The notes under the pieces: model-generated
Told to the model about the DNA's origin: nothing
Database searches by the model: none
Seen by the model: the letters and a program-made list of their open reading frames with translations, nothing else
Origin: Candidatus Cottocaccamicrobium excrementipullorum
GTDB lineage: Bacteria > Bacillota > Clostridia > Lachnospirales > Lachnospiraceae
Assembly (NCBI GenBank): GCA_018713255.1
Contig: DVFL01000005.1
Location: 62,001 to 126,000, forward strand
Direction: 5' to 3'
DNA length: 64,000 nucleotides
Position numbers and translations under genes: made by a program
Shown: piece by piece, positions 29,701-44,986 of the stretch
How the letters are laid out: every line of letters begins with the position of its first letter
How positions within the stretch are numbered: position 1 is the first letter of the stretch

Positions 29701-30870
29701 ATGAGAAAAATAGCAGTCGCAGGCACTGGATACGTAGGATTATCAAACGCCGTGCTCCTTGCACAGCATAACGAAGTCCATGCCTTAGATATTGTCCCGG
29801 AGAAGGTGGAAATGATCAACAATCGGAAATCCCCCATTGTTGACAAGGAACTGGAAGATTATCTGCAGAATAAGCCCTTGAATCTTAAAGCCACTCTTGA
29901 CCCGGAAGAGGCCTTTACCGGAGCTGAGTTTGTGATTATTTCTACGCCTACCAACTACGACCCAAAGATGAATTACTTTGATACCAGCTCTGTTGAGGAT
30001 GCTCTGGAAAAAATTCTCCGCTACGCGCCCAATGCAATGATTATCATTAAATCCACCATTCCGGTAGGATATACAAAATCTATGCGTGAGAAACTCCATA
30101 CAAACAACATTGTATTCTCTCCAGAGTTTTTAAGAGAAGGACATGCACTTTATGATAATCTTTATCCTTCCAGAATCGTAATCGGTGAAGACTCCCAGCG
30201 AGCCAAAGATTTTGTTGCCCTCCTTCAGGAAGGCGCAATTAAGGAAAACATCCCCGTTTTATACACAGGCCTTACGGAAGCAGAAGCCATCAAACTATTC
30301 GCCAATACCTATTTGGCACTTCGGATTTCCTTCTTTAATGAATTGGACACTTACGCAGAAGTACGGGGTCTGGATACCCGCCAGATCATCGACGGCGTTT
30401 GTCTGGATCCCAGAATCGGAGACTTCTACAATAACCCTTCCTTCGGTTACGGCGGATACTGCCTGCCTAAGGACACCAAGCAGCTGCTGGCAAACTACAA
30501 AGATGTGCCCAACAATATTGTAGCTGCTATCGTAGATTCCAACCGCACCAGAAAAGATTTTATCGCAGAACGGGTAATTGAAAAGAATCCCGGCATCGTT
30601 GGCGTTTATCGCCTGACCATGAAGTCGAATTCTGACAATTACCGCCATTCCTCCATCCAGGGCGTAATGAAGCGAATCAAAGCAAAGGGGATTGAAGTTG
30701 TAGTTTACGAACCCACCATGAAAGAATCCGAATTTTTCCGTTCCCGGGTAATCTCCGATCTGGACGAATTTAAGCGGATTTCCGATGTGATTATTGCCAA
30801 TCGCTGGGATGATGCGTTAAGCGATGTAAAAGATAAGGTGTATACTCGGGATATGTATGGTAGGGATTAG
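29701..30870 (+). CDS. ugd: UDP-glucose 6-dehydrogenase
   Basis: 389 residues: [13 protein letters not shown] at the NAD site, STIPVGYT, and the catalytic Cys254 in [11 protein letters not shown]. It oxidises UDP-glucose (or a UDP-N-acetylhexosamine) to the uronic acid, a capsule precursor. The short form of about 390 residues is the Streptococcus/clostridial capsule type. It is monocistronic with its own promoter and terminator, so uronate supply can be set apart from the two large polymer operons. Confidence 0.93.
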
Positions 30871-30895
30871 TGCTTAGTCATTCCTTCTTCCGTTG

Positions 30896-30932
30896 AATAA
30901 AAAGCAGTCTGAATCTTCGGGCTGCTTTTTTA
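30896..30932 (+). terminator. Terminator of ugd
   Basis: Stem AAAAAGCAG with CTGCTTTTT followed by further T, 25 bp past the stop. The remaining gap to 31196 (326 bases between genes) is strongly A+T-rich and holds the next promoter. No gene was seen in it. Confidence 0.85.
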
Positions 30933-31066
30933 TTTACAAAAACTGAATAAATACAGATATCAATTTATTATTCTTAATATCCTATTCTAAAATTCTATTG
31001 TATTTTCGCATACAAAAAAGTTCAACCAACATATAGGAAATAATCCATAAAATGCCATGGAAAAAG

Positions 31067-31095
31067 TTGCATATTGTCTTAAAATGACTTATCAT
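31067..31095 (+). promoter_or_regulatory. Sigma-A promoter of the GT2/PP-loop pair
   Basis: TTGCAT, 17 bp, TATCAT, giving a leader of about 95 bases before the ATG at 31197. The -35 matches those of the two promoters at the head of the ABC-type locus. Confidence 0.65.
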
Positions 31096-31196
31096 AGTAT
31101 GCAAGCAGTCTTTATATAGTAGTTAATAAGTCCTTTCATATGGATTCCAATCACATTAATAAAGATTGATTTTAATTAAAAAATACGGAGAGAAAA

Positions 31197-33446
31197 ATGA
31201 ACGAAATAAAAGTATCTGTTATTGTCCCAGTATATAATTCTGAAGATTACTTAAAAGAATGCCTTAATAGTCTACAAAATCAAACTTTAAAAGAAATAGA
31301 AATCATCTGCGTTGATGATGGTTCTTCTGACCAATCCTGCCAAATTTTGGATGAATATGCAAAACTTGATGATCGTTTCCACATTTTACACCAAGAAAAT
31401 CTGTACGCCGGTGTTGCCAGAAACAACGGTCTTTCCATCGCCAAGGGGCAATATGTTGTTTTCTTTGATTCAGATGACTTTTTTGATCTTAATCTATTAG
31501 AAAAAGCTTATTTGCAAATATCGTCAACAGACTCAGATATTGTTCTTTTTGGCGCGCAAAAATTTAATACTAAAACCAGAGAAATTGAAGAAGCTCCTTG
31601 GTATTTTAACCGCAAATATCTTCCTGATAAAATCGTTTTTTCCCGAAAAGATATTCCAGACAAAATTATGTCAATTACTTCTTCTGCCCCGTGGACAAAA
31701 ATGTATAACAGAACATTCATTTTAAATCATGGACTTAGATTTCAGGCGTTACAAAATAGTAATGATGCTTATTTCACTCTGTTATCCATGTGTCTAGCAG
31801 AAAAAATTACATATATCGATGAAAACCCTGTATATTACCGCGTTGGACAAACCCACAATATACAAAATACAAAAAGCAAACATCCTACCTGTTTTATCGA
31901 TGCATATATCAAACTGTATAATTCTTTAGCTGAAAAAAAGCTTTTTCCCGAGATCGAAAAAAGCTATGTCGATACAGTAATTTCTGGCTGTGCCTTTAAT
32001 TTGAACACTATAACAGATCCTAATGCGCGACTCAAAATCTATGAAGCTATATCCAGTGATTCATTTTTGGCCAGTGGAATTTTAGATCATCCGGAGTCAT
32101 ACTATTCTGACCAGGATAAGATGTATCAAGTCAAGGGTTGCTTGTATGCTTGGAAAGAACATAATATTCTTTATCAAAATAATAATGATAAGGAAACTCA
32201 TATTTTGATTAATGGAATGCAAAATAGTACGCCAAAAATTTCAGTAATTATTCCGGTCTACAATGTTGAACAATATCTTGAAGAATGCTTAAACAGTATA
32301 ATCACACAAACCTTTGATGATATAGAAATTATATGTATTAATGACGGCTCTACAGATAATTCCTTAAATCTTTTATTAGATTATGCAAAAAGGGATCAGC
32401 GTATTCATGTTTACTCACAGAAAAATGGAGGTCTTTCATATACACGTAACATAGGTGTTAAAGCAGCCAAAGGTAAATATATATACTTTATGGACAGTGA
32501 TGATATCCTAAATGCTGCAGCACTAGAACATTTATACTGCAAAGCTGAAGACCAAAATTTAGATGTGACTTATTTTGATGGATCCGGTTTTGGCGATGCA
32601 GAAACCTGCAAAGAGCAGATTGAACAATATAAAAACTATTACCACCGAAAGGGTAACTACAGTCAAATTCAGGATGGCGCATCTTTCATGGAGGCCCTTC
32701 TTCAAAATAACGAATATCGAACATCTCCTTGCCTGCAATTTATGACTAGAAAACATTTTTTAACAAATGCTATATGGTTTACTGAAGGAATTCTCCATGA
32801 GGATAATTTTTTTACTTTCAAAAGTATGTTGAGTGCAAAACGAGTTTCTCATTTAGACGAAACCCTATTTTACCGTAGAATCCGTCCGGACTCCATTATG
32901 ACCGTAAGGCCAACCTTCTCTCATGTATACGGATATTTTTATTCATATATTAAAATGAATAATTATCTGCATTCATTAAGCTTGACAGAAGCGCAGCAAA
33001 TTGCTCCTGTTGAAATAATATATCGAGTTCTTCATAATGCGCGAAACCAATTTGCGAAATTAGAGGAAGATGAAAAATATTCTTTTCTTGGTCTTCCAAT
33101 TTATCAACAAACATTGTTTAAACTTTATATCACAGAGATTGACAAGAAATCCTTAGAAGCCAAAAAAACTAAAATTGTTTTAGAGAGAACGTATTCTCAA
33201 AAATCAGAATTAAATAAGAAATTACAAAAAGCATACAAAGAAAAATCGGAAATAAATCGAAAATTACAAATTACTTATAAGGAAAAATCAGAAATAAACC
33301 GTAAACTACAAATCACTTATAAAGAAAAAGCAGAGAGAGGAATTGAGATTAAAAATCTAAAATCCCAATTAGATATTTTAAAAAATCAATCATCCAATTC
33401 AGCAACCACAAAATTACGAAACATATTACATTCCTTTTTCAAATGA
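31197..33446 (+). CDS. Two-domain GT2 glycosyltransferase with repeat coiled coil
   Basis: 749 residues with two complete GT-A domains. The first opens VSVIVPVYNSEDYL (residue 6) with VDDGSSDQS and DSDDFFD. The second opens ISVIIPVYNVEQYLEE (about 345) with INDGSTDNS and MDSDDI. Each has its own DxD, so both may be active, adding two sugars or alternating sugars. Residues about 640-749 form a charged coiled coil with three to four 14-residue repeats (YKEKSEINRKLQIT). The gene is A+T-rich, unlike the flanks. The next gene, a PP-loop protein, starts 25 bp downstream. Confidence 0.88.
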   Translation: MNEIKVSVIVPVYNSEDYLKECLNSLQNQTLKEIEIICVDDGSSDQSCQILDEYAKLDDRFHILHQENLYAGVARNNGLSIAKGQYVVFFDSDDFFDLNLLEKAYLQISSTDSDIVLFGAQKFNTKTREIEEAPWYFNRKYLPDKIVFSRKDIPDKIMSITSSAPWTKMYNRTFILNHGLRFQALQNSNDAYFTLLSMCLAEKITYIDENPVYYRVGQTHNIQNTKSKHPTCFIDAYIKLYNSLAEKKLFPEIEKSYVDTVISGCAFNLNTITDPNARLKIYEAISSDSFLASGILDHPESYYSDQDKMYQVKGCLYAWKEHNILYQNNNDKETHILINGMQNSTPKISVIIPVYNVEQYLEECLNSIITQTFDDIEIICINDGSTDNSLNLLLDYAKRDQRIHVYSQKNGGLSYTRNIGVKAAKGKYIYFMDSDDILNAAALEHLYCKAEDQNLDVTYFDGSGFGDAETCKEQIEQYKNYYHRKGNYSQIQDGASFMEALLQNNEYRTSPCLQFMTRKHFLTNAIWFTEGILHEDNFFTFKSMLSAKRVSHLDETLFYRRIRPDSIMTVRPTFSHVYGYFYSYIKMNNYLHSLSLTEAQQIAPVEIIYRVLHNARNQFAKLEEDEKYSFLGLPIYQQTLFKLYITEIDKKSLEAKKTKIVLERTYSQKSELNKKLQKAYKEKSEINRKLQITYKEKSEINRKLQITYKEKAERGIEIKNLKSQLDILKNQSSNSATTKLRNILHSFFK
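33192..33341 (+). repeat. 42-bp in-frame tandem repeats
   Basis: Units begin at 33192, 33234, 33276 and (partial) 33318. Each codes for 14 residues of the coiled coil. The second and third code for identical peptides while differing at several third positions, so the array is not freshly duplicated. Copy number could vary without breaking the frame. Confidence 0.8.
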
Positions 33447-33471
33447 AACTTAAAAGCAAAGGAGACTATAT

Positions 33472-34641
33472 ATGAAAAAGATGTTTGCTACTAATTTTAA
33501 TATAGAAAAAGGCCACATCGATTTTAAATGTTATATCTTCGATAGTGAAAAAGAAGTGGAATATGACATTTTTTTCGATTTGGATGATGAAGTTATTCCA
33601 AGTAATGATGCTATTGCTTGTGCAATATCCACTCTAGCTGGAACCACCTTTACGGATTTAGAAATTAATTTACCTATTTCTGTAGAAATGCGTGCAAATA
33701 TAGCTGCATTTACGAAAGCTTCTATTATTGCTCCAGTCAATTCAGATGCTTATTTTACTAGAGAAGGCCGAAATATTATCCTAAATTTCAGTGGTGGTTT
33801 CGATTCCCTCGCAGCATTCTACTTAATGCCCAAAAATGTAAAATTAGTATCAATGGATTTCGATGGAGCATTCAAAAGAGAACGCAATTTTTTCGAAAAA
33901 TTTCATCCTTACACTTTAAAGACCAATTTCAGGCAATTAAAATTAGATCGGAATTCTTGGACATTTATGGGAATAGGTGCCATTCTTTATGCAGAATACT
34001 TATCTGCCGGTTTCAATGTATTTGGGACAATATTAGAAGCAACAAAATACCATTTTCTTTACAAACCAACTTCTGCATACAATAACCAAACACCTCCATT
34101 TTCTTTCATCGGATTAAAGGATATTCGATATACTAACGGATTAACAGAGGTGGGCACTGTAATTGTAATAAGTCATTACGCACCTGAATTAGTTAATGAT
34201 TCTTTACGTTCCCTGAGCAATCCAAAAACAGAAAAACGTTATCGTAAGGAAACATTATTAGATATAATTTGCAAAAAATTTAATCGTAATATTGTTTTTG
34301 AAAGAACCGATGCACCTGATTCAAGAATTCCTTTCGGGCAAAATATTTCTCTTGATTTTCTATGTTTTTATATTATAAAAAATGCAGGGATTTCAATTGC
34401 TGCTAACACAATTTCAGATATTCCTAATGAAGTATTACAACTTGCTAATAAACTAGAACTCACTTTTTATGAAAGACTAAATTGTGAATTTATTAGCGGA
34501 AATACTTTCCCGAATAATGAAAGTAAAGCGTCTTTTATGCAACGAATACTGGAATGTGGTGTTCTCCCCTACACTGAAAATGATTATAAAGAATTTAGAG
34601 AAGTAATTAATTTGCTAAATTATTATCACCACTTTCAATAA
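33472..34641 (+). CDS. PP-loop (N-type) ATP pyrophosphatase-like protein, unknown role
   Basis: 389 residues. The centre carries ILNFSGGFDSLAAFYL with the PP-loop SGGxDS at 107-112, the nucleotide-binding loop shared by QueC, TilS, ThiI, asparagine synthetase and the WbpG-type sugar amidotransferases. Such enzymes adenylate a carboxyl, carbonyl or base and replace AMP with nitrogen or sulfur. The first 100 residues are an acidic domain (IFFDLDDEVIPSND) not recognised. A helical part follows (GIGAILYAEYLSAGFNVFGT). No Cys pair of tRNA-thiolation type is seen. Its start is 25 bp after the dual GT2, so it probably acts on the same glycan or sugar donor. Confidence 0.7.
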   Translation: MKKMFATNFNIEKGHIDFKCYIFDSEKEVEYDIFFDLDDEVIPSNDAIACAISTLAGTTFTDLEINLPISVEMRANIAAFTKASIIAPVNSDAYFTREGRNIILNFSGGFDSLAAFYLMPKNVKLVSMDFDGAFKRERNFFEKFHPYTLKTNFRQLKLDRNSWTFMGIGAILYAEYLSAGFNVFGTILEATKYHFLYKPTSAYNNQTPPFSFIGLKDIRYTNGLTEVGTVIVISHYAPELVNDSLRSLSNPKTEKRYRKETLLDIICKKFNRNIVFERTDAPDSRIPFGQNISLDFLCFYIIKNAGISIAANTISDIPNEVLQLANKLELTFYERLNCEFISGNTFPNNESKASFMQRILECGVLPYTENDYKEFREVINLLNYYHHFQ

Positions 34642-34664
34642 AATTATTAAATATATTTCTTTTC

Positions 34665-34705
34665 GAGCGAATATGTTGCTATAATTTATAATAACATATT
34701 CGCTC
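34665..34705. terminator. Hairpin between convergent transcription units
   Basis: Perfect 13-bp stem GAGCGAATATGTT with its complement and a 15-base loop, between the PP-loop gene and the end of the Gtr-like cassette. It is A+T-rich on both sides, with short T runs, so termination in both directions is likely. Confidence 0.7.
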
Positions 34706-34721
34706 ACATTTTAACGTGCCT

Positions 34722-36701
34722 TTATCGATAACAGATATAATTTCTATCATTAGTATCGAAGGCAACCGTGTCAATCACCTCTTGTGTACTATTTCTATAA
34801 ACAACAATATTCAATCCACGCCTATTGACAGCATATTCAATTCCATTAACCCGTATTGATGCCAGATTTCCATATTGATATGTTTTACTTTCCAAGTAAA
34901 AAGGAGTTCCGTCTATCTCGCCTTCATACATAATTGCTTCATCAGCTGCACCAACTTGCTGAAACACAGCTTTACCATCCTCTATGATTCCCGCAAACGA
35001 ATGGTTTTCTTTCTCCAGAAGTTCATTCAAATTTTTAAATCCTAATAACTCCAATCGATTAATCAATGGCTCATCCAGTTCATTTCCCTGTGTATCCTTA
35101 ACAGCAAAGAATATTGTGCAATTATCTAAACGCGAAAGAAGTGATAAATAGTTTTCTAAATCCACAATTGCTTTAAGCTCTTCTGTAACAGAAGAAAAAT
35201 GAGCTCTGTCTTTACGCACATAAACTTTTTGTGAATCAATTATATCCATCAAATAATACTTTTTTAAAACATCATAGCCTAAAATTTGATATTCATTTTG
35301 TCTAGGTTCTGATACAATTATTTCTGGGGAATTGCTATTTATTTGTTCTCTATAATCAATTCCCCGATTTGGATCATTTAACACTGCACTGGCAATATAA
35401 GGATATGTCGTTGCAGAATCATGCCCCGTAGCTAGATATAAACCTGCGGATCCCCCAAGAATTGAGATCTGCCCCTTCTCACTTACATATTGATTAATAA
35501 CATTAATCAAACGTGTTTTTGAACTATCTGCTGTCCATGAACTAACGCAAGCAGGATACAATTCTTGAAAATTAGGATAAACAAACAAGCAAATTATAAC
35601 AATTAAAGAAGATGTTCCGATAAAAATTCTCTTTTTTACCTTTACAAAAAGAAATATCTTCATCATACAAGCTGCCATTAAAACCCATAAAGGAAACAAT
35701 GTGGACAAGTAATGATAATAATTTCTGCCAGGCATTGCCAAAAACAATAAAGATACAATTAATGCAATGGTCGTGTGTAAAACTAGATTTTTCCCTTCTG
35801 ACGATTCCGTTGCTTTACCACTAATCTGAAAAATAATATAAACCGCTAACATTAGCCATATAATTACGACACTAGGATGTGATGAAAGGTATAAAAATGA
35901 TTTTGCCCGATTTAATAATGATGTATTTCCTGCATACATAAGATTGGCAACAAAATAATCTTCTATCATCTTTTCCATTGCGTTATTTATAAAAAGCCAT
36001 CCGCAAACAACAATAGAGACTCCTAAAAAACCTATCACATACCAAAATATATAGCGGCCAATAATAAGTATTTTCTTTTTAACTGCCAACTCTGCTATAA
36101 TAAGTGCACATAATAGTAACAGAGTAATCATTGTAGAATGTTTTAGCCAGAAAATTCCAGCATTGCATGCACCAAATATCAACAAATGTTTTTTACTGAT
36201 ACTTTGCATAGTATAATGATCTATAAGATAGTATAAAGATACCGCCATAAATAAACCGGCAAAGAACTCCGGTGTTCCACCTTTAAAATCAAGTCTTATA
36301 AAGCCAGAATATAATATTAAATTAATCAGCACCGCCAAAGCTTTACCAACAAAACGATATGCAATATAATAAGAGATTCCTAATGTAGCTGCCATAATAA
36401 TAAAATTAATCAGCCACGGCCCCCACTTCATATTAATTAGACAGCTAATCGCATAAATCAAATATACTAAAGGTCCTTTATGATCAAATGCATCTACATA
36501 AGGCATTTTTCCTTTTGTCACCAAATAGCCAATATACTGATAGATTGCTTGATCATAATTTTGCATACGTTTACTGACAAAGAAAAATTCATTTGCCATA
36601 GTCAAAATCAATGAATATACTAAAATAAACAGCAGCAACAACTTATTTTCGTTTAACCATAATATAAATGGCTTAAATATGCATTTTTCTTTTGCTACCA
36701 T
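34722..36701 (-). CDS. GT-C membrane glycosyltransferase with C-terminal ILEI/GG-like domain
   Basis: 659 residues. About 10-11 helices to roughly residue 385; the first outer loop has RMQNYDQAIYQYIG and DAFDHKGPLVYLIY, the acidic motif of GT39-like or GtrC-type enzymes that use polyprenyl-phosphate sugars. The soluble remainder ends in a domain (about 510-652) whose two halves resemble FAM3/ILEI (GG) domains in swapped order: DNCTIFFAVKDTQG with RLELLGF, then LASIRVNGIEYAVN with RGLNIVVY and IDTVAFDT. It follows gtrA by a one-base overlap (TAATG). A role as the final transferase of a Gtr cassette is inferred. Confidence 0.75.
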   Translation of the reverse strand: MVAKEKCIFKPFILWLNENKLLLLFILVYSLILTMANEFFFVSKRMQNYDQAIYQYIGYLVTKGKMPYVDAFDHKGPLVYLIYAISCLINMKWGPWLINFIIMAATLGISYYIAYRFVGKALAVLINLILYSGFIRLDFKGGTPEFFAGLFMAVSLYYLIDHYTMQSISKKHLLIFGACNAGIFWLKHSTMITLLLLCALIIAELAVKKKILIIGRYIFWYVIGFLGVSIVVCGWLFINNAMEKMIEDYFVANLMYAGNTSLLNRAKSFLYLSSHPSVVIIWLMLAVYIIFQISGKATESSEGKNLVLHTTIALIVSLLFLAMPGRNYYHYLSTLFPLWVLMAACMMKIFLFVKVKKRIFIGTSSLIVIICLFVYPNFQELYPACVSSWTADSSKTRLINVINQYVSEKGQISILGGSAGLYLATGHDSATTYPYIASAVLNDPNRGIDYREQINSNSPEIIVSEPRQNEYQILGYDVLKKYYLMDIIDSQKVYVRKDRAHFSSVTEELKAIVDLENYLSLLSRLDNCTIFFAVKDTQGNELDEPLINRLELLGFKNLNELLEKENHSFAGIIEDGKAVFQQVGAADEAIMYEGEIDGTPFYLESKTYQYGNLASIRVNGIEYAVNRRGLNIVVYRNSTQEVIDTVAFDTNDRNYICYR

Positions 36702-37123
36702 TACTCTCTGTTATCCTTTCTGCCAAAAATCACATTTTTACTGGCCACGTAATTTAAAATAATTACTAAGATATTGGCCCCCGCTTTAATAATTACATCA
36801 TTAAAACTAAGTAAATCTACAAAAATAAGCATACATAACCAATCCAATATTCCTGTAGCTAAACGGCATGCAAAAAAAGAAATCATTTCTGTCCGAATTT
36901 CTTTGGCGCTTTTTGCCATGCTATGAAACACCCATTTTCTATTTGTCAAATATGCAAATAGTACAGCCAAAAACCAAGCAATAACTGTACTGGGCATAAC
37001 TTCTATTTTGAGTGGATGTGCCAAAAACCAATATGCCATTATATTTACTAATGTAGTTAATATACCAAATACTGCATATGGTACGATATCTTTATATTTC
37101 TGATATAGTGCTTTTACACTCAT
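36701..37123 (-). CDS. GtrA-family membrane protein
   Basis: 140 residues, four helices, with the family pattern YAVFGILTTLVNIMAYWFL at the start and FAYLTNRKWVFHS in the middle. GtrA proteins are thought to flip undecaprenyl-phosphate sugar for side-chain addition. ATG at 37123 follows AAAGGTGG; a GTG twelve bases earlier is less likely. It sits between the GtrB-like GT2 and the large transferase, the order of a three-part Gtr module. Confidence 0.85.
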   Translation of the reverse strand: MSVKALYQKYKDIVPYAVFGILTTLVNIMAYWFLAHPLKIEVMPSTVIAWFLAVLFAYLTNRKWVFHSMAKSAKEIRTEMISFFACRLATGILDWLCMLIFVDLLSFNDVIIKAGANILVIILNYVASKNVIFGRKDNRE

Positions 37124-37165
37124 TTCTATCACCACCTTTCTTAGTTTCGATAATATACTATGTCC

Positions 37166-37879
37166 TTATTTCATTTGTTTCTTCAGCACTCGAAAATCAC
37201 CTAATGCTTTCCATCCGATTCTTATGATCTTTTTAACATTGATAGAATTTTTTCCACCTTGTCTCGGTCTGAATGTGACTTTTGAAAACAAAACTTTTTC
37301 TTTATAATAAACAAAATACGTTGTTAATATTACATTTGGAAGATTAAAATCATTTGGCATTTTATGAATATATTTTTCCAAAAGCTCTCTCTTCATCAAT
37401 CGAAATGGCGCATTAGCATCAGGTACACTCACGCCGAATACTATTTTTAAAATAAAACGTAATGTATCTTCTACAAACTTTCTAGATAATCCATCTTTTC
37501 GATCATGTCGATTCCCTAAAACTGCATCGTATCTATTTCGTTCTTTCCAAAATTCTTCAAATTCTTCTGGAAGTGTTTGACCATCGGAATCTGTCTGAAA
37601 AATATAGTCCGCTCTATGATCAATCGCGTAATTATAACCATAAATTAGAGTTGGACCATGTCCACTATTTTCTTTTGTTAATGTTTCAAGTAATGGACGA
37701 GTTTTTGCGCATTCTTTTAAGATTTTATATGTGTCGTCTTTACTGCCATCGTTAATTACGACTAAACGCGATTCACCGTTGCCATTATGTTTTTCGATCA
37801 CAGGATACCAATCATCAATTAACTTTTCGATATTCTCCTCCTCATTATAGGCGGGAACAATAATATATAATTTTTCCAT
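37166..37879 (-). CDS. GT2, polyprenyl-phosphate sugar transferase (GtrB/DPM-like)
   Basis: 237 residues from the ATG behind GGAGGAG (a frame to 37912 overlaps the previous gene). Opens LYIIVPAYNEEENIEKL, VINDGSKDDT, then TDSDGQTLPEEFEEF and DANAPFRLMKRELL, the DPM1-like signature. It lacks the two C-terminal helices of classic GtrB, as some DPM synthases do. It would load a sugar on undecaprenyl phosphate for the GtrA/membrane-transferase pair just downstream. Confidence 0.85.
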   Translation of the reverse strand: MEKLYIIVPAYNEEENIEKLIDDWYPVIEKHNGNGESRLVVINDGSKDDTYKILKECAKTRPLLETLTKENSGHGPTLIYGYNYAIDHRADYIFQTDSDGQTLPEEFEEFWKERNRYDAVLGNRHDRKDGLSRKFVEDTLRFILKIVFGVSVPDANAPFRLMKRELLEKYIHKMPNDFNLPNVILTTYFVYYKEKVLFSKVTFRPRQGGKNSINVKKIIRIGWKALGDFRVLKKQMK

Positions 37880-37908
37880 AAATAAAACTCCTCCTATCGT
37901 ATCACTTT

Positions 37909-38928
37909 TCATTTCTTGACGCCATTCGCTTTTTTAAGGAAAGGCTTTACTATCGACCTAACAAAATTACCCCACAACATTGGGACAACTAGTCCGACCA
38001 ACGTATAGATGATCCACCACCCTTGTTCAACATCATAAACCGGATAATAATCCAACACACTGCTTAATAAACTTCCTTCCCTATATAACTGAAACGCAAT
38101 TACTAAACGGAAAGCCACAAATTGCCAAATAACAATATCTAAACTTTTCCGCCCTAAATAACATAAACCCATTTTCAAAACACGTATCTCTATAGTTTGC
38201 TCAATTATTCTAGAGATAAAAATAACTCCATATGAAGCGCATAGTGCTCCAAATACAAATGAAAAATAATGTCTGTATTCATTAGCTCCCATATTGGCCG
38301 AATTGTATCGTCCTACAACAATGAACACTACCACAGCAAAAAAAGCAATTAATGGCCGATCAAATTCTTTCCACTCTTCTGGCAATCGTTTAATCATATG
38401 ACCTATCCCATAAAAAAGTCCTAAAATTAATGTTCTACTGAACATCAATGGAAAATTAATTTCAAAACCAACAATGGCTAAAGCCACAAAACTAAAAAAG
38501 ATAAAAGAATATCGATATTTCCAGTCACGAAGGTAAGTATCTAATAATTTGTAAAATACAGATACCAGGAATAATGATCCTAAAAACCAGGTAGCTCCAA
38601 AAAATTGACCATCTTTGTTTAATGTAAGCAATATTTGTCCTATTAACTTTACATTACTAGTTAAGCGTCCAGGAAATAAAATCGTCTTTATTAACACAGC
38701 TAGTATATTCCACATAATAAACGGAATATAAATTGATTTTACTTTCCCAAACAAGAAGTCTTTAAATGACTTATCCTCATTATATAGGTAGCCGGAAATC
38801 AAAAAAAACAATGGCATATGAAACAAATACATATAATTGGAAAATGGACCTCTTGCATGAGCCCATACTACCAAAATTATACCTATTCCTTTCGCAATGT
38901 CCAAATATGCAACTCGTTTTTTACCCAT
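37909..38928 (-). CDS. Acyltransferase family 3 membrane protein
   Basis: 339 residues, ten or so helices, opening KRVAYLDIAKGIGIILVVWAH with the catalytic-type His, then LFHMPLFFLISGYLY. It probably O-acetylates the exported glycan. It differs strongly from the acyltransferase at 25.3 kb and is A+T-rich like its neighbours. Its ribosome site lies inside a hairpin (38930-38968), and it is the first gene of the four-gene block ending at 34722. Confidence 0.88.
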   Translation of the reverse strand: MGKKRVAYLDIAKGIGIILVVWAHARGPFSNYMYLFHMPLFFLISGYLYNEDKSFKDFLFGKVKSIYIPFIMWNILAVLIKTILFPGRLTSNVKLIGQILLTLNKDGQFFGATWFLGSLFLVSVFYKLLDTYLRDWKYRYSFIFFSFVALAIVGFEINFPLMFSRTLILGLFYGIGHMIKRLPEEWKEFDRPLIAFFAVVVFIVVGRYNSANMGANEYRHYFSFVFGALCASYGVIFISRIIEQTIEIRVLKMGLCYLGRKSLDIVIWQFVAFRLVIAFQLYREGSLLSSVLDYYPVYDVEQGWWIIYTLVGLVVPMLWGNFVRSIVKPFLKKANGVKK

Positions 38929-43422: not shown

Positions 43423-44184
43423 CTATCTTTTGCTCTTATTCATCTTTGCCAATTCCATGTATTGATCACATACTTCATTTACTTCCCCGCAGGCTCTTAC
43501 TTTTCCTTTTTCCAGCCATATCGCGTGATCACACAGCTTTTTAACTTGCTCTACATTATGAGAAACAAAAAGAAGTGTTGTGCCTCCACTTAACATGTTG
43601 CTCATTCTGTCCATGCATTTCTGCTGAAAAAGGAAGTCGCCAACAGATAAAACCTCATCACAGATTAAGATATCCGGGTCTACCATAGTTGCCACAGAAA
43701 AGCCAAGCCTGGCTTTCATACCAGAAGAAAAATTTTTAATAGGCGTATCTAAAAAATCCCATAATTCAGCAAAATCTACTATCTCTGAGAAATGCTCGTC
43801 CATATATTTTTTGGAATGTCCCAGAACTGTTCCATTCAAATAGATGTTCTCTCTGGCAGTCAAATCCGGATCAAATCCAGCTCCTAATTCAATCAAAGGC
43901 GCAATTTCTCCATGTACTTTAATGCTGCCTTTATAGGGCTTTAAAATTCCGCTGATCGCTTTCAGCATAGTGGACTTTCCAGAACCATTCACCCCGATAA
44001 GTCCCCACGCCTCTCCTTTTTTCACCTTAAATGATACATCCTGAAGAGCAAAAAATTCCTGAAAAGTAAGCTGCTTTTTAATCAGCTTGATTACATATTC
44101 TTTTAAATTATCCACCTTTTCACTGGCCATGTTAAATCGGATGGTTACGTGATCAACTTCTACTGCATAATTTTCATTTGCCAT
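43423..44184 (-). CDS. ABC exporter ATP-binding subunit (TagH/Wzt core type)
   Basis: 253 residues: Walker A GVNGSGKST (64-72), signature FSSGM (152-156), Walker B ILICDE (172-177). The N-terminal extension before the core (DHVTIRFNMA...KLIKKQLTFQEFFAL) is typical of polysaccharide and teichoic-acid exporters. It lacks the C-terminal carbohydrate-binding domain of long Wzt proteins, so chain length is probably not read by this subunit. It pairs with the permease 13 bp upstream. Confidence 0.92.
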   Translation of the reverse strand: MANENYAVEVDHVTIRFNMASEKVDNLKEYVIKLIKKQLTFQEFFALQDVSFKVKKGEAWGLIGVNGSGKSTMLKAISGILKPYKGSIKVHGEIAPLIELGAGFDPDLTARENIYLNGTVLGHSKKYMDEHFSEIVDFAELWDFLDTPIKNFSSGMKARLGFSVATMVDPDILICDEVLSVGDFLFQQKCMDRMSNMLSGGTTLLFVSHNVEQVKKLCDHAIWLEKGKVRACGEVNEVCDQYMELAKMNKSKR

Positions 44185-44197
44185 CTATGCACCTCTA

Positions 44198-44986
44198 TCA
44201 AATATATAAAATAAATTTGTCCTGCTTCCGAATAAACACAAACAGTCCTACGCCAAACATAATAAAAGCAATCAGCCATCCGCCCCAGAAAATTCGCGGT
44301 CCGGGAATCTTCCCAATATAAACCAAATCTCTAAACTGGGCTACATAATAGTAAAGAGGATTGAATCCTTTAATGACAAACTGCACGCTCTCTGGAAGCC
44401 GCTCAATCGGATAAAAAATAGGAGTTAAATACATCCAGGCGGTAATAACTGCATTATAAATATACTGAATATCCCGGAAAAATACATTATATGCAGCCAA
44501 GAAAAATCCCAGACCGCAACAGAAAATATAAATCTGGATAATGACCAAGGGAAACAGCAAGAATGTCCATGTTACTCTTGCTCTAGTCGCTACAATTACA
44601 ATCAGCAGTGCACCGAAAGAAAATACCAGATCAACCATACAGCTAGTAACTTTTGCCAACGTAAAGATATACTTTGGAACATAGGTCTTTTTAATTAACG
44701 CAGCATTTCCCGTTACCGATCGCATGGCCTGCCTGGTAGAAGTAGAAGTAAATTCAAATAGCATACGTCCGGTAAACAAATATACCGGGAAATTTTCAAT
44801 ATTATTGCTGAACATCGTTGAAAACACAATCGTCATAATAATCATGACAAACAGCGGATTCAGCACACTCCATAGATACCCGAGAAAGCTTCTTCGATAT
44901 TTCAGCTTAATATCCCGAATTACCAGCTGATACAGCAGATCTTTATATTTCAGGAATAAATTCACGCGGATTTTCCATACATTCAT
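44198..44986 (-). CDS. ABC-2 type polysaccharide exporter permease (TagG/Wzm)
   Basis: 262 residues, six helices, with LVIRDIKLKYRRSFLGYLWSVL and LNPLFVMIIM at the start, the coupling helix motif of the family, and YYVAQFRDLVYIGKIP near the end. It moves a full-length lipid-linked polymer out of the cell. The presence of this pair separates the 39-49 kb locus from the Wzx/Wzy locus at 11-25 kb. AAGGAG precedes the ATG. Confidence 0.92.
   Translation of the reverse strand: MNVWKIRVNLFLKYKDLLYQLVIRDIKLKYRRSFLGYLWSVLNPLFVMIIMTIVFSTMFSNNIENFPVYLFTGRMLFEFTSTSTRQAMRSVTGNAALIKKTYVPKYIFTLAKVTSCMVDLVFSFGALLIVIVATRARVTWTFLLFPLVIIQIYIFCCGLGFFLAAYNVFFRDIQYIYNAVITAWMYLTPIFYPIERLPESVQFVIKGFNPLYYYVAQFRDLVYIGKIPGPRIFWGGWLIAFIMFGVGLFVFIRKQDKFILYI

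Follow-up and report, generated by a model that had tools for sequence, protein, structure and literature searches.

What does a PP-loop protein do when its gene directly follows that of a glycosyltransferase in a bacterial polysaccharide locus? The question is raised by a 64,000-nucleotide stretch of Candidatus Cottocaccamicrobium excrementipullorum (assembly GCA_018713255.1, contig DVFL01000005.1, positions 62,001 to 126,000 of the forward strand; hereafter the window), in which a sequence-only reading had singled out two neighbouring genes, one for a 749-residue protein with two family 2 glycosyltransferase (GT2) domains and one for a 389-residue protein with an SGGFDS motif, as a candidate system for undescribed chemistry. 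The listing of open reading frames (ORFs) confirms the coordinates of both (Table 1). We find that the 389-residue protein is very probably akin to the QueC/QatC group of PP-loop enzymes and propose, with a probability of about 0.45, that it is a QatC-like ATP pyrophosphatase of the QueC superfamily that amidates a uronic or other glycan acid, the tandem GT2 building the glycan. Undescribed chemistry thus stays plausible: the PP-loop protein lies outside the sequence families tested, sits in a glycan locus and, as had been supposed, has no visible glutaminase beside it, none being found among the 20 window proteins scanned with Pfam (the rest of the window genes lay outside that scan).

Kinship with QueC and QatC

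Family models recognise little of the 389-residue protein: no Pfam family matches at E ≤ 1, NCBIfam returns just two irrelevant sub-threshold models, no PADLOC model matches, PHROGs gives a weak PAPS-reductase match at residues 94-151 (0.0045), and a sequence search of the PDB finds no match for it or for its relative L010. A tblastn search against plasmids gave one match, a Priestia megaterium protein annotated as DUF6395 (5e-3; pairwise 5e-10), and it is this single match that links the window protein to DUF6395 (PF19932). A profile built with the Priestia protein and a Nonomuraea homologue (A3) was then used to scan genome contigs, where at least 587 stretches fit a pattern and 34 loci were confirmed among the matches listed: one in a Lysinibacillus metagenome-assembled genome (MAG), two in Euryarchaeota MAGs, 30 in Streptosporangiaceae (by genus names) and one in a Propionibacteriaceae MAG. 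The last of these, L043 (9209-10375), is the closest relative among the matches listed; it is of equal length (389 residues), 34% identical and colinear end to end, which supports the window ORF as a true coding sequence and not a chance reading frame. The blocks FSGGFDSLAA, DRNSWTFMG.GAILYA, LTEVGT and KRYRKE are common to both proteins, and in a tree that took in 16 of the 37 available rows they group as a clade (100/100) whose branch measures 3.81, that of L043 itself being long as well (2.09).

Homology to DUF6395 covers residues 46-233 of the window protein in pairwise comparison, the remainder being aligned by multiple alignment, and in both the N-terminal domain is followed by the PP-loop core and then by the C-terminal part. 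Unlike the family, however, the window protein gives no match at E ≤ 1 to the Pfam model (174 positions, C-terminal part; criterion over 25 bits), which also misses L043 (E ≤ 0.1), and, L043 apart, it shares just 17-21% identity with the aligned members.

At the level of predicted structure, a fold search with the window model returns QatC (10.3), QueC (8.0 and 7.5), Cap9 (6.6) and LarE (6.3), rows under 8 being not safe by the tool's own note. QatC is also the best match of the model of an archaeal homologue, for which the QueC-type placement is clearer; with the window model the match runs from residue 1 on, the VIA alignment pairing model residues 1-317 with chain residues 3-457 over 268 residues. 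The protein thus combines an α/β core bearing SGGxDS with a structure nearer to QueC-type than to other PP-loop enzymes, and shares with QatC an N-terminal extension joined to a QueC core. The N-terminal domain, which had been called unfamiliar, indeed passes no sequence family, but its predicted RNase H-like fold is a common one and aligns with the QatC extension. Sequence identity to QatC is 11-14%, and the QatC model NF041925 (criterion over 280 bits) does not match at E ≤ 1.

The hallmarks of QueC are SGGxDS and C(x)8CxxCxxC, plus YxQxHxxE, VPxRN and YPDC (available text of PMC13329287). Among 35 aligned members (the window protein and L010-L043), SGGxDS is present in all, as the reported SGGFDS at residues 107-112 in the window protein, and the zinc motif C(x)7-8CxxCxxC in 32 (24 and 8 for the two spacings). 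By eye L010 keeps three of the four zinc cysteines, whereas the window protein and L043 have none, S244, K252, a gap and R256 taking their places in the former; QatC, by contrast, retains its zinc site (available text of PMC13279940). YxDC occurs in none of the 35, window protein included. The stretches RNSWTF (window protein, L043) and R[NK]P[VA]GF (L010-L012, Priestia) are putative counterparts of the RN of QueC and of R233 and F237 of QatC, which bind adenine (available text of PMC13279940); the automatic alignment put the RN of QueC elsewhere, and the order SGGxDS then RN, judged by eye, is that of QueC and Cap9. Further invariant positions are A114, A174, G185, E226, T229, K255 and K259. 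GxxxE does not count as a conserved motif, as the pattern occurs somewhere in all 35 members but is not kept in register in Streptosporangiaceae.

Membership of a known queuosine family, which had been named as one outcome that would speak against novelty, therefore holds in part: the fold places the protein in the QueC/QatC superfamily, with the PP-loop core of QueC (7-cyano-7-deazaguanine synthase) and Cap9, but it has neither zinc site nor YPDC, carries extra N- and C-terminal parts, and is not QueC. A local QueC route is itself unlikely, since none of the 11 genomes of the genus, that of the window among them, yields a PF06508 (QueC) match at E ≤ 1e-5. The QueC model TIGR00364 matches two of the 35 members, and weakly (best 0.22). 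Against the PDB, profile A5 matches PP-loop enzymes at 0.25 and weaker, and profile A4 gives one GMP synthetase match at 1.3; a WD-40 match of A5 (4.1e-7), with no stretch passing alone, was rejected as a repeat artefact.

Loss of all four zinc cysteines, the long branch of 3.81 to the DUF6395 members and the absence of YxDC (though from all 35 members) could point to a degenerate, non-catalytic relative, serving as a structural or ATP-sensing subunit, yet SGGFDS, RNSWTF, FGTxxE and TEVGT are retained in the window protein and L043, in the stretches where they are most alike, and we judge this quite unlikely. The likeness to WbpG/WbuX-type N-acetyl sugar amidotransferases (NASAT), which turn an acetamido into an acetamidino group and had been brought in earlier for comparison, is divided at the level of profiles. 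These are PP-loop enzymes of sugar loci as well (available text of PMC10607449), the window protein too lacks a fused glutaminase, and the larger profile A5 matches five such proteins at 53% against 45% for three QueC; the two-member profile, on the other hand, gives them 19% against 85% for QueC. The tetracysteine motif that defines the NASAT family (available text of PMC10607449) is absent by eye, no NCBIfam sugar-amidotransferase model matches the protein at E ≤ 1, the NASAT model TIGR03573 included, the latter finds nothing in the genome at E ≤ 1e-10, and QueC and QatC head the fold lists; the 50 fold-list rows do not include the solved NASAT enzyme, an absence that we do not count as evidence. 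Such an amidotransferase is very unlikely. Least likely of all is a QatC-type component of anti-phage defence that lies beside a glycosyltransferase by chance. QatC as the best fold match and the location of the gene in an AT-rich, probably acquired block (see below) would suit it, but neither NCBIfam nor PADLOC yields a QatC model match at E ≤ 1, the PADLOC matches of the 35 aligned members belong to three families, none of them Qat, no QatA-, QatB- or QatD-like family occurs among the 20 window proteins scanned, and the flanking genes on both sides are glycan-type. Library matches to CD1375 (13 of 35 members, best 4.7e-4), SAVED2, 2TM effector and AbiI (best 0.0067-0.033) were dismissed as weak.

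Relatives, their neighbourhoods and the proposed reaction

In Priestia, the annotated neighbours of the DUF6395 gene are nucleotide-sugar dehydrogenases, glycosyltransferases, GalU, a pyruvyl transferase and spore-coat genes, and L011 and L012 are accompanied by a dehydrogenase and by Wzm- and Wzt-like genes, in L012 also by a GT4. The glycan settings in Priestia and archaea, that of the window and the recurring dehydrogenase favour a sugar acid as the substrate, as does the resemblance of the neighbouring window gene to UDP-glucose dehydrogenase (Table 1). What the computations show is the relationship to QueC and QatC, the predicted fold, the lost motifs, the AT-rich block and the glycan setting. 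We infer that the 389-residue protein, with DUF6395 a member of the QatC-like kind, would bind ATP through SGGFDS, and probably also RNSWTF, and would most likely adenylate a carboxylate, from which an amine or ammonia would displace AMP to leave an amide. Superfamily membership, the retained ATP side and the absent nucleobase motif together suggest that the enzyme adenylates some carboxylate, though not 7-carboxy-7-deazaguanine; the likeliest substrate is a uronic acid or some different acidic group in the surface polysaccharide that the locus makes, and the tandem GT2 may then receive the product and make or extend the amidated glycan. More tentatively, and with some doubt, we suggest that a QatC-like enzyme without zinc site and nucleobase motif was recruited to surface glycans to form an amide (a uronamide, an aminoacyl sugar or a conjugate with the GT2) by a route undescribed for glycans.

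Other observations favour a protein as the target. In the Streptosporangiaceae loci (L009, L013-L042), a small conserved coiled-coil frame lies immediately upstream of DUF6395 in 30 of 31, overlapping it by 4 nt in 25 of the 30 and standing 2-6 nt apart in five, and the coil protein is likely a partner of DUF6395, in analogy reminiscent of QatB-QatC; QatC forms complexes with QatB, a helical protein (available text of PMC13279940). Together with the QatC build, this coupled partner would suit an enzyme that attaches some small acid to a protein and thereby controls it, the upstream GT2 or its coiled-coil tail being a possible target: such modification has been demonstrated for Cap9 and suggested for QatC, which leads the fold matches of both models, and the window GT2, with its repeat-coded tail, ends 25 nt upstream. 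Conversely, the GT2 begins with MNEIKV, unlike the MG start of QatB (available text of PMC13279940), and the gene upstream is an aminotransferase in L043 and, by eye, epimerase-type in L012. A protein modifier appears rather improbable to us. The PC(A/V) ending of many Streptosporangiaceae coil proteins, considered as a modification site and rejected, is explicable by the 4-nt overlap with the DUF6395 start.

Other companions in the Streptosporangiaceae loci are an amine oxidase (30 of 31), tRNA-edit (29 of 31) and M55 (27 of 31), with a GT4-like ORF about 5-8 kb off in L017 and L019 (by eye). L043 is surrounded by central-metabolism, peptide-transport and two-component genes (by eye), and L010, a 3.9-kb contig, offers little neighbourhood information. 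The relatives' loci were probed for glycan genes with a small set of proteins from the window and from archaea, which other glycosyltransferases could escape; these probes found no glycosyltransferase at L043. A conserved pairing with a dual GT2, whose absence had been named as counting against the proposal, is thus not borne out as far as searched, and either gene occurs in just one of the 11 genus genomes, the window's own (E ≤ 0.001 for the PP-loop gene, E ≤ 1e-60 for a GT2 protein like this one).

The enzyme is rare. Searched alone, the window protein has no relative in genome contigs, viral contigs or phages; the L043 protein has none in phages and matches plasmids only at E 0.7; viral scans with profiles A1, A2 and A4 found none. 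In sampled genomes (the family, genus, class and phylum sets overlap), the window protein or profile A4 matches one of 299 in the family and one of 398 in the phylum, each time the window's own, and six of 391 in the class, namely its own and five at E 0.001-0.007, which we take as chance matches, three of the five (L002, L004, L005) showing unrelated-looking ORFs. PF19932 is above its cut-off in none of the 398 phylum genomes, with one weaker match, L008, containing stop codons, and NF041925 in none of 148 genomes of the class.

The AT-rich block, its polysaccharide locus and wider meaning

Table 1. Positions in the window of the gene pair, its motifs and neighbouring features.
Feature	Position	Strand	Basis or remark
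UDP-glucose 6-dehydrogenase-like protein	29701..30870	+	family scans; outside AT-rich block
749-aa protein, two GT2 domains and coiled-coil C-terminal tail	31197..33446	+	Pfam/NCBIfam scans
42-bp (14-residue) tandem repeat, 3.2 copies	33199..33334	+	in GT2 coding sequence
389-aa PP-loop protein, DUF6395/QatC-like, without zinc Cys4 site	33472..34641	+	alignments, fold search
N-terminal domain, residues 1-88, predicted RNase H-like fold	33472..33735	+	model; aligns with QatC N-terminal extension
SGGFDS PP-loop motif, residues 107-112	33790..33807	+	motif search
RNSWTF, residues 160-165	33949..33966	+	putative counterpart of RN in QueC VPxRN and of QatC R233
SLRSLSNPKTEKRYRK, residues 244-259, position of relatives' zinc Cys4	34201..34248	+	all four Cys lost
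Hairpin, possible two-way terminator	34665..34705		between convergent genes
659-aa protein, ILEI domain at residues 500-572; by eye, N-terminal part of membrane type	34722..36701	-	AT-rich block
GtrA-family membrane protein	36701..37135	-	AT-rich block
Single-domain GT2	37166..37912	-	AT-rich block
Acyltransferase 3 family protein	37909..38928	-	AT-rich block
Genes for an ABC ATPase and an ABC-2 permease, of the polysaccharide-export type to judge from the setting	43423..44986	-	family scan

The two GT2 domains of the 749-residue protein are confirmed (PF00535 3.8e-75, residues 7-141; the second from about residue 341), each half containing DSDD by eye. The in-frame 42-bp repeat encodes part of the coiled-coil tail (coil by eye) and might vary in length between strains. 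With 25 nt between the genes and an AAAGGAG ribosome site (by eye) ahead of the second, the pair plausibly constitutes a two-gene unit. A promoter of its own, as had been claimed, finds no backing, promoter-like sites in 30800-34900 being at chance level (20 found, 22.9 expected); the terminator claimed alongside agrees with a strong hairpin between the convergent genes (-20.7 kcal/mol, z -4.44; one of 200 shuffles equally good), but the consensus scanner does not list it.

Six ORFs (31197-38928), encoding the gene pair, the ILEI-domain protein, the GtrA protein, a GT2 and the acyltransferase, have a GC content of 0.315-0.330 and a third-position content (GC3) of 0.21-0.285, against 0.378-0.54 and at least 0.365 in the other 37 of 43 measured ORFs; the window as a whole stands at 0.45 versus about 0.32 for the six genes. 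This block was probably acquired horizontally, and we read it as an acquired decoration block within a polysaccharide locus, which continues past it with a GT4-type protein, several GT2, the ABC pair of Table 1, a sugar transferase and an O-antigen-ligase family protein. The ILEI domain, named after an interleukin-like vertebrate protein, is found here inside a bacterial glycan block.

The dehydrogenase upstream, which would supply UDP-glucuronate, is ruled out as part of the block by its GC content of 0.448. A second such gene lies elsewhere in the genome (G000:C29:16754-17983; L073, L081; 68% identical), and homologues at E 1e-100 occur in six of the 11 genus genomes, own included. An empty-site comparison covering four of the five other genomes and the second copy, in which one stretch measured just 5.7 kb, found none of the other window genes probed save for two weak epimerase-type matches (24-26% identity) and did not reveal the insertion site.

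Enzymes of this build spend ATP on activating acids, either in making modified nucleobases or in tagging defence proteins. Roles of QueC-type enzymes beyond queuosine have been found recently: Cap9 attaches a nucleobase to a protein (available text of PMC11996544), while the reaction catalysed by QatC is still unresolved (available text of PMC13279940). In the literature searched, no paper contains the name DUF6395, and the search for QatC or QueC with glycosyltransferases or polysaccharide biosynthesis gave none on the subject, judged by title. If DUF6395, an uncharacterised family, and the zinc-less branch share the two-domain build of QatC, as the models suggest, the group would be represented in glycan loci not only of the genome studied here but also of Priestia and archaea, and these proteins would offer new partners for testing QatC-like chemistry.
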